The notes under the pieces were generated by a model. The model searched no databases and was not told where the DNA came from. It saw nothing but the letters and a program-made list of their open reading frames with translations. The translations under genes and the position numbers were made by a program. Below, one piece after another: positions 13,460 through 15,806 of a stretch of DNA of 34,252 bases. How positions within the stretch are numbered: the stretch's first letter is position 1; every line of letters starts with the position of its first letter. The stretch is from an uncultured Phycisphaerales bacterium. Lineage in GTDB: Bacteria > Planctomycetota > Phycisphaerae > Phycisphaerales > UBA1924. The DNA lies in assembly GCA_937858155.1 (NCBI GenBank), contig CALLYM010000272.1, positions 1 through 34,252 of the forward strand. Direction: 5' to 3'.

Positions 13460-13798
13460 GTGAAGAACCTGATCCAGCGTGGTGCGTTGATGAGCGTGGT
13501 GCTTGCGGGGCTGGGCTTTTCCAGCGCGGCGAGCGCGGCGGATGGAAGAGGCGGTGAAGGGTACCACGGGAACCGCGTTGCCCAGGTCAAGGTCGAAGTG
13601 TCCCAGCTCGGACATGGTGGTCGGGGCCGGGGCGAGGGCCGCGGTGACCGCCGCGACTACGACCGCGGCTGCGAGAAGCCTTCGATGCGGCGTGGGCACG
13701 CGCGGGGCAACTTCATCTACGTCCGCCCGGGGCGCAAGGTGATCATCATCCGCGGCGGCGACTCGTGCAACGAGCGCCGGCGCGACAACTGCCACTGA
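13460..13798 (+). CDS. Small secreted Gly/Arg-rich protein
   Basis: The start is placed at GTG 13460 because AAAGGAG lies six bases upstream and the protein then begins as a standard signal peptide (MKNLIQRGALMSVVLAGLGF, cleavage near AASA-AD). The in-frame ATG at 13436 would add eight residues with no such site. The mature part, about 85 aa, is Gly/Arg-rich (GHGGRGRGEGRGDRRDYDRG), then has a strand-forming NFIYVRPGRKVIIIRGGD and ends with two Cys (SCNERRRDNCH). Very basic for a secreted protein, so it may bind nucleic acid, anionic polysaccharide or the cell wall. No family recognised. A good terminator follows. Confidence 0.75.
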   Translation: MKNLIQRGALMSVVLAGLGFSSAASAADGRGGEGYHGNRVAQVKVEVSQLGHGGRGRGEGRGDRRDYDRGCEKPSMRRGHARGNFIYVRPGRKVIIIRGGDSCNERRRDNCH

Positions 13799-13985: not shown

Positions 13986-14022
13986 AAAAACGATCGCGGG
14001 GCCGACGATTGCCAGCCCCGCG
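13986..14022 (-). terminator. Minus-strand terminator closing the Lys-rich peptide unit
   Basis: CGCGGGGC (13995-14002) pairs perfectly with GCCCCGCG (14015-14022) across 12 bases. On the minus strand the stem is followed by ATCG and five T. It is oriented for transcription coming from the Lys-rich mini-gene at 14178. Confidence 0.65.
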
Positions 14023-14136
14023 TTCGCTGCGTTGTCCTGTGAGTTCTTCCGCGTCTCCTGACGCGGGAGGGCCGGGCCTCACAGCCCGGGTGAAGATGGG
14101 AACGACTCGCGCTCCCTCTTCAGGCTGCGAGCAGCC

Positions 14137-14178
14137 TTACTTCTTCTTTTTGCCCTTCTTCTTGGTCTTCTTCGCCAT
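14137..14178 (-). CDS. 13-residue Lys-rich peptide (candidate microprotein)
   Basis: The minus strand reads MAKKTKKKGKKKK then TAA: nine Lys in 13 residues. AAGGAG lies seven bases before the ATG, as strong a site as any in the window. A TATACT -10 box lies about 80 bases upstream and a terminator 115 bases downstream, so the ORF sits in its own small transcription unit. It is too short for standard gene finding and I recognise no family. It could be a ribosome- or nucleic-acid-binding peptide, a leader peptide sensitive to lysyl-tRNA supply (though no gene follows in the same direction), or a chance ORF in a small RNA. Codons are mostly AAG. Confidence 0.55.
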   Translation of the reverse strand: MAKKTKKKGKKKK

Positions 14179-14254
14179 TGATCATCTCCTTGGCAACATG
14201 GGAAGCGCCTTCGACGCAACGAAGCGCCGCAGCGCTCACCCTAAGACACGGTTC

Positions 14255-14260
14255 AGTATA
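14255..14260 (-). promoter_or_regulatory. -10 box for the Lys-rich peptide unit
   Basis: TATACT on the minus strand matches the sigma-70 -10 consensus at five of six bases, in otherwise GC-rich DNA, about 77 bases before the mini-gene ATG. No good -35 hexamer lies at the usual distance, so an activator might be needed. Confidence 0.45.
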
Positions 14261-14290
14261 TCGGAGGATGTGCACTCTGTGCTTGACCTT

Positions 14291-14558: not shown

Positions 14559-15806
14559 ATGGAGCTCCCCTTGTCCACCATCCAGACCCGAGTCCTCGCC
14601 TGCGGAATGCCGCTCTTTGTCGAGGTAATGCCCTCCGTCCGGTCCGCGGCGGTCTACTGGATGCTCCCCGCCGGGTGCGCGACAGACCCCGACGACCGCG
14701 AGGGCGTCAGCACCATGATGGAGGAGCTTTTACTGCGCGGGGCGGGTGCCCGCAACAGCAAGGAACACGCAGACGCGGCCGATCGCCTGGGCGCCACGCG
14801 GGGCACGACCACGGGCACTTTCACCATGGGAATTTCCTCGACCATGTTGGGGGAGCGGGTGTGCGATGTGCTGCCGCTGCTTGTGGACATGGTGCGCAGC
14901 CCCCGGGTGGAGGACGACGCCATAGAGGCGACACGCGACCTGTGCCTGCAGGCCATTGAGTCCTTGAAAGATGACCCTCAGGAACGGGCCATGCTCGCGA
15001 CCAGGGCACGCCACAACCCCTACCCGATCAACCGTTCGGGTATGGGAACCGTGGATGGGCTGACCAGGACCACCCGCGACGACCTCGTGCGCTTCTGGGA
15101 TCGGCTTGCACGACCGGGCGGGAGCGCAATCGCGGTCGCGGGCGCGGTGAACGCGGACCGTGTCGAGCGCGTGCTCAACGACCTGCTGTCGGGGTGGTCG
15201 GGCGTGGCGAAGGCGCCCGCCGTCGGCCCCATGCCCCCGCGCGGGTACGCGCACGAAGACGACGATTCGTCTCAGGTGCAAATCGTGGTGGGGTATGACG
15301 CGCCGCCCGAACCGAGCCCGGACGCTGTGCTCGAGAAACTGGCGATCAGCGTGCTGTCGGGCGGCATGTCGGGCAGGTTGTTCACGGAAGTCCGTGAGAA
15401 GCGCGGCCTGTGCTACACCGTGTCTGCCGGCTACCGGGGCGACAAGGAGTTTGGCACGGTGATCGCGTACGTCGGCACCGCGCCGGAGCGAGCTCAGCAG
15501 TCGCTCGACGTTCTGCTGGAACAACTCCGCCACATCACGACACCCGAGGGAAAAGTCACCGAAGAGGAATTCCGGCGGGCGAAGGTGGGTATGAAGAGCG
15601 GCCTGGTCTTCAGCGGCGAGTCCACCAGCGCCCGGGCGGGGGCACTCGTCACCGACTGGCGCCGCCTGGGCACGCCCCGGACGCTGGAAGCTGTGGCGGC
15701 GGAGATCGAGGCCGTCACCCTGGACCAGCTCAACGCGTACTTGTCCAAGCGGAAGTTGGGGCGGATGACGATCCAGACGCTGGGGCCGGCGGGGTTGAAG
15801 GTGTGA
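14559..15806 (+). CDS. M16 (insulinase/processing peptidase) family protein lacking the zinc-binding motif
   Basis: A 415-aa M16B-type protein of normal length. M16 peptidases bind zinc through HxxEH near residue 50. Here the aligned stretch is GVSTMMEELLLRGAG (TMMEE at 52-56), so both His are gone and it cannot be a canonical zinc protease. The C-terminal half keeps the substrate-binding pattern (GGMSGRLFTEVREKRGLCY, then a later Tyr/Gly). In M16B systems an inactive subunit usually pairs with an active one, as in mitochondrial processing peptidase; no partner is in this window. No signal peptide is seen. ATG 14559 has no clear ribosome binding site; a TTG at 14571 with GGAG before it is an alternative start. 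Confidence 0.88.
   Translation: MELPLSTIQTRVLACGMPLFVEVMPSVRSAAVYWMLPAGCATDPDDREGVSTMMEELLLRGAGARNSKEHADAADRLGATRGTTTGTFTMGISSTMLGERVCDVLPLLVDMVRSPRVEDDAIEATRDLCLQAIESLKDDPQERAMLATRARHNPYPINRSGMGTVDGLTRTTRDDLVRFWDRLARPGGSAIAVAGAVNADRVERVLNDLLSGWSGVAKAPAVGPMPPRGYAHEDDDSSQVQIVVGYDAPPEPSPDAVLEKLAISVLSGGMSGRLFTEVREKRGLCYTVSAGYRGDKEFGTVIAYVGTAPERAQQSLDVLLEQLRHITTPEGKVTEEEFRRAKVGMKSGLVFSGESTSARAGALVTDWRRLGTPRTLEAVAAEIEAVTLDQLNAYLSKRKLGRMTIQTLGPAGLKV

Follow-up and report, generated by a model that had tools for sequence, protein, structure and literature searches.

A conserved Phycisphaerales gene for a 13-residue polylysine peptide, with a sigma28-like promoter and a structured leader

The window, the whole 34,252-nucleotide stretch of DNA analysed here, comes from an uncultured Phycisphaerales bacterium and contains a compact minus-strand unit. 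The ribosome-binding site, 13-codon open reading frame (ORF), hairpins and terminator of this unit are all present at the positions given in a sequence-only reading that preceded this work. The ribosome-binding site, AAGGAG (14186–14191), stands seven bases 5′ of the ATG. The ORF (14137–14178, 13 codons plus stop) encodes MAKKTKKKGKKKK, in which 9 of the 13 residues are lysine. A hairpin contacts the stop codon (14122–14137), as seen both in the fold and in an inverted-repeat listing that found it on the plus strand. The 3′ UTR (14023–14136) contains two perfect hairpins (14089–14072 and 14066–14049). The unit is closed by an intrinsic terminator (13986–14022), the stem of which (14022–13995), counted here as 12 pairs, is followed by T5. 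Beyond the other end of the unit, and not part of it, a divergent gene on the plus strand (14559–15806; Pfam PF05193 and PF00675) encodes an M16-type peptidase, which serves below as a synteny anchor. A convergent plus-strand ORF (13460–13798) encodes a small, secreted-looking, Gly/Arg-rich protein with a signal peptide and its own terminator, for which Pfam gave no match. No second copy of the 13-codon ORF was found in its own genome, where one weak second match is a chance purine-rich similarity.

The ORF is conserved. When 100 same-family genomes were searched at the DNA level, many genera gave matches to the ORF and its ribosome-binding site, the matched loci encoding MAKK(A/T/K)KKK... peptides of 13–25 residues with identical GGAG spacing; GGAG is found at the equivalent position in most relatives. 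All four genomes of the window's own genus encode polycations of 13–21 residues. Upstream of the orthologous ORFs in same-family genomes lies a shared motif, TCAAG-N17-CCGATA, which in the window comprises a −35-like element, TCAAG (14282–14286, minus strand), and a −10 element, CCGATA (14259–14264, minus strand), the latter conserved in the compared promoters. The TATACT previously proposed as the −10 box overlaps the 3′ end of CCGATA and is itself not conserved; no sigma70-type promoter was found in the region, and no consensus site at TATACT. Among 19 short ORFs found by ORF similarity alone, 13 have TCAAG-N17-CCGATA within 160 nt and a 14th (L020) has it farther upstream; two of the five that lack the motif are second tandem copies. 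In one genus (g3; L004, L013 and L340) the short Lys-rich ORF is present as two tandem copies, both preceded by a ribosome-binding site of their own; the shortest is 12 residues long.

Of 163 same-family genomes, 87 contain exactly one match to a combined search pattern (promoter, 67–97 nt, then ATGGCNAARAAR), and the reversed-pattern control gave no match in these 163. The pattern is present in 34 of 397 genomes of the class, nine of which are outside the family. Scanning one genome per species across 84,980 species yielded 114 loci, nearly all from Phycisphaerae; the three outliers beyond Phycisphaerae that were examined (L203, L230 and L253) are unrelated proteins that merely begin MAKKK. 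Although the pattern allowed spacers of 16–18 nt, the spacer is 17 nt in all 96 distinct loci. This is a conserved single-copy gene of Phycisphaerales bacteria with an almost purely lysine-based predicted product, and we found no description of it in the literature. Gene finders usually skip ORFs of such length, so that genes of this kind are easily missed.

The ORFs behind this promoter differ widely in length: they span 13 to about 150 residues, and those at the upper end are built from KATRKKATRKK-type repeats. Taken together, the 118 orthologs contain 47% K, 22% A, 12.5% T and 11.5% R, and 2 of their 6,336 residues are acidic. Products of at most 30 residues are encoded at 62 of the 118 loci, spread over many genera, and products of more than 60 residues at 44. 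The divergent M16 peptidase gene adjoins 66 of the 118 loci with enough upstream sequence, beside both short and long ORFs; because of this common neighbour, we identify the window's 13-mer as an ortholog of the long histone H1-like proteins. Profile searches gave sub-threshold scores only. A 138-residue ortholog scored 20.2 bits (E = 7 × 10⁻⁴) against HC2 (PF07382), where the curated cut-off of 40 was not reached; three other orthologs gave no match to this profile, and the 13-mer is too short to be scored. Likewise, a long ortholog scored 28 bits (E = 2 × 10⁻⁶) against the histone H1-like model NF038053, below its cut-off of 80. As these scores are sub-cut-off and due to low-complexity repeats, we do not claim membership of the HC2 or H1-like families. 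The 118 orthologs nonetheless have HC2-like traits: they are Lys/Ala/Arg-rich, nearly free of acidic residues and variable in length through repeats. They also share KA-rich repeats and variable length with the histone H1-like proteins of Burkholderia and Bordetella, from which the 28-bit score against a cut-off of 80 sets them apart. Five loci of another genus (g59; L349–L353), which have neither the M16 neighbour nor TCAAG, were not counted as orthologs; they encode HU-family proteins (PF00216) with an N-terminal MAKKTKKKAARKPAKK-like (MAKKTKKK) tail, and have CCGATA and a GTGTGGGTGGAAGCCGCACAC hairpin upstream.

This range of lengths bears on two other explanations. Relatives with equal synteny reach about 150 residues and 12–13 is the shortest length seen, as would be expected if a longer H1-like protein were decaying in the window's lineage and the 13-mer were functionless. 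We regard such decay as improbable: short forms make up more than half of the family (62/118) in many genera, all four genomes of the window's genus encode 13–21-residue polycations, and the gene retains its promoter, ribosome-binding site, MAKK start and stop codon. The second explanation, a leader peptide acting as a lysine-codon sensor (attenuator), had been put forward in the sequence-only reading, and the run of Lys codons flanked by hairpins does resemble one. We reject it, because the unit is closed by a terminator with no downstream gene in it, the next gene being on the opposite strand, and because orthologs extend to about 150 residues.

Planctomycetes and Chlamydiae both belong to the PVC superphylum. 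Chlamydia Hc2 consists of lysine-rich low-complexity repeats, the number of which sets its length at 165–237 residues (PMC2848022), and after knock-down analysis the C. trachomatis sigma28 regulon comprises only hctB, the gene for histone Hc2, and tsp (PMC10597470). Judged by analogy, this sigma28–hctB pair is the best parallel for the window's gene, given the lysine-rich composition, the length variation through repeats and the sigma28-type link. Unlike Hc2, however, the family described here spans 13 to about 150 residues, most of its short forms are repeat-free and its HC2 Pfam score is sub-cut-off; in addition, sigma28 dependence would here be deduced from the promoter, and sequence of such low complexity does not allow common ancestry to be demonstrated.

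The sigma28 consensus is TAAAGTTT-N11-GCCGATAA (PMC2859248). CCGATA is the core of the −10 consensus GCCGATAA and is often followed by A, whereas the −35 differs: TCAAG lies 17 nt from CCGATA, versus TAAA at the consensus distance. In a dedicated test, 19 of 30 genomes had TCAAG-N17-CCGATA upstream of the flagellar motor gene fliM, with a spacer of 17 every time (loci L158, L144, L165, L166 and L309–L338; 14 matches, plus five in loci stored in reverse orientation). No motif was present at spacers of 10–16 or 18–24 nt, nor elsewhere in those loci. Across 24 genomes, further sites of this promoter lie before fliM, before a gene for a PD40 beta-propeller lipoprotein and in a few other places. 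The PD40 lipoproteins with the promoter upstream (L141, L143, L160 and L161) are about 370–440 residues long and come from four genera. A variant with a shorter spacer, TCAAG-N16-CCGATA, precedes PilZ-domain orthologs in two genomes of the window's genus (L034 and L044).

FliA is nearly universal in the family, scoring above the cut-off in 79 of 81 same-family genomes. The two in which it was not found above cut-off are the window's own assembly, which is 83% complete, and one other; FliA is present in two genomes of the window's genus. The −10 sequence, the fixed spacing, the occurrence before fliM and the prevalence of FliA agree with sigma28 flagellar promoters, and FliA is a candidate factor. 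The −35 element and its distance are not, and flagellin genes of the same genomes, examined as a sigma28 control, have no CCGATA promoter. This last result weakens a simple FliA reading and, together with the departure of TCAAG from the sigma28 TAAA, leaves room for another sigma factor or an activator. Two flagellin loci (L172 and L182) have sigma54-like sites, TGGCAC-N5-TTGC, close upstream; this suggests that fliM and flagellin may use different sigma factors. Whichever factor recognizes it, TCAAG-N17-CCGATA offers a clean motif with which to define a planctomycete sigma factor or flagellar regulon that includes fliM.

The promoter also bears on what the peptide might bind. Polylysine binds any nucleic acid, and some very small basic ribosomal proteins resemble the peptide in size and charge, so that a ribosome- or RNA-binding microprotein, targeting rRNA or another RNA instead of DNA, comes to mind. 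We think this doubtful, as lengths from 13 to about 150 residues with no conserved fold-forming motif do not fit such a protein and flagellar-type promoters are, to our knowledge, not normal for ribosomal proteins.

The transcript predicted from below the promoter to the terminator, 273 nt, has a folding energy of −133 kcal/mol (z = −6.1), and none of 200 dinucleotide shuffles was as stable. For the window's leader alone z = −2.0, and for its 3′ UTR without the terminator z = −3.3. The minimum free energy fold of the leader is a single long two-tier hairpin (14200–14241, minus strand), with an outer stem of about 10 bp and an inner stem of 6 bp. Each of the two leader hairpins proposed earlier (14236–14223 and 14227–14205) can form, but neither occurs in this predicted fold. 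Significant structure is also seen across the family: mean z is −1.17 for 92 non-redundant leaders (t = −8.9) and −1.69 for the 3′ UTR before the terminator (t = −11.5, n = 71), against −0.04 for control DNA upstream of the promoters. Of 81 relatives, 72 have an intrinsic terminator no more than 300 nt away, at a median of 142 nt past the stop. The earlier proposal of a self-contained transcription unit is borne out, and the conserved Lys-rich ORF that it named as supporting evidence was found. Homologous regions keep the promoter, ribosome-binding site, Lys-rich ORF, structured leader, structured 3′ UTR and, for the most part, the terminator.

RNAalifold gave no consensus on a global alignment of all leaders, because leader sequences are too divergent, and was replaced by half-swap energetics and genus-level alignments. 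When halves were swapped among 79 leaders, the chimeras lost about 3.6 kcal/mol on average and none of 5,000 permutations was as good as the native combination; evolution has therefore preserved the leader stem despite changes in its sequence. The leader structure is under selection, and the hairpin has undergone compensatory evolution. The other three members of the window's genus have equivalent two-tier leader hairpins of different sequence, with mean energies in the genus of −26.2 kcal/mol for natives and −21.2 kcal/mol for chimeras, although these means come from four sequences only and two of the 12 chimeras beat the natives that were joined. None of the window's individual 3′ hairpins turned up as such in relatives. 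In one eight-genome genus, the 3′ UTR downstream of a 17-residue ORF (L078–L085, alignment A1) contains crossing helices that may form a pseudoknot, and two of these helices show compensatory changes; from eight related sequences, this fold is suggestive. Leader and 3′ UTR also show excess complementarity (t = 3.6; duplex P = 0.0012), carried by a minority of loci and exemplified in several genera by GTGGCGCT and its partner AGCGCCAC. A test for direct repeats shared by the two regions gave no significant result (t = 1.5).

These results bring in the main rival explanation, a dual-function RNA, in which the structured transcript would itself be regulatory, whether by long-range leader/3′ UTR pairing or by pairing to other mRNAs, with the peptide as one of two products. 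The unit has what such RNAs have, a conserved short ORF within a structured, separate RNA of about 270 nt, the independent transcription of which is deduced from promoter and terminator. Significant structure in leader and 3′ UTR relative to upstream control DNA, the half-swap loss, the excess complementarity and the crossing-helix fold of one genus all speak for it. However, hairpin sequences vary between genera, the complementarity comes from a minority of the loci, and the structure may serve only translation control and mRNA stability. No Rfam family matched the window above its gathering score, the sub-threshold matches being chance ones, and, unlike known dual-function small RNAs, the orthologous transcripts are ordinary mRNAs, encoding proteins that can reach about 150 residues. 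We consider a dual-function RNA unlikely, if less so than an RNA-binding microprotein or a vestigial gene.

The explanation that we favour, with somewhat better than even confidence, is that the unit forms a complete, monocistronic gene whose product is a polycationic H1-like protein shrunk to 13 residues, and that its sigma28-like promoter ties a nucleic-acid binder to flagellar expression. Beyond the sequence-only reading, the main point is that the 13-mer, by synteny, belongs at the short extreme of a histone H1-like family under a flagellar-type promoter. Transcription would start from TCAAG-N17-CCGATA, the class that also drives fliM, and give an RNA in which a structured leader is followed by a strong ribosome-binding site, the ORF, a 3′ UTR that is also structured and, finally, an intrinsic terminator. 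The leader would regulate translation. The peptide, if produced, would bind DNA or RNA by charge alone and could help to condense or shield nucleic acid while flagellar genes are on, for example in a motile swarmer stage. An H1-like polycation acting through charge only and made when flagellar genes are on would be the most economical account. A 13-mer may, on the other hand, be too short for stable DNA compaction, and a simple histone mRNA would not account for the structured UTRs.

Should this account hold, the peptide would rank among the smallest conserved bacterial proteins with orthology traceable to long histone H1-like proteins, and it poses the question of the minimum length at which a polycation can still do an H1-like job. 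The flagellar-type promoter parallels the Chlamydia sigma28–hctB link, which suggests that among PVC bacteria the coupling of motility or cell-stage control to condensation of the chromosome may be of greater age or generality. A more speculative version, which we rate slightly below the dual-function RNA and above an RNA-binding microprotein, would have one transcript serve as micro-histone mRNA and structured RNA at once, with leader and 3′ UTR folding together round the polylysine ORF under flagellar-type control. A histone substitute of 12–25 residues would then have an mRNA that is itself a conserved, possibly pseudoknotted ligand or regulator. Finally, a short motif, GCTCCGA, occurs in 22 leader sequences against 0.8 expected. 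The motif is also present in 3′ UTRs, and through its CTCC it could pair with GGAG in ribosome-binding sites.
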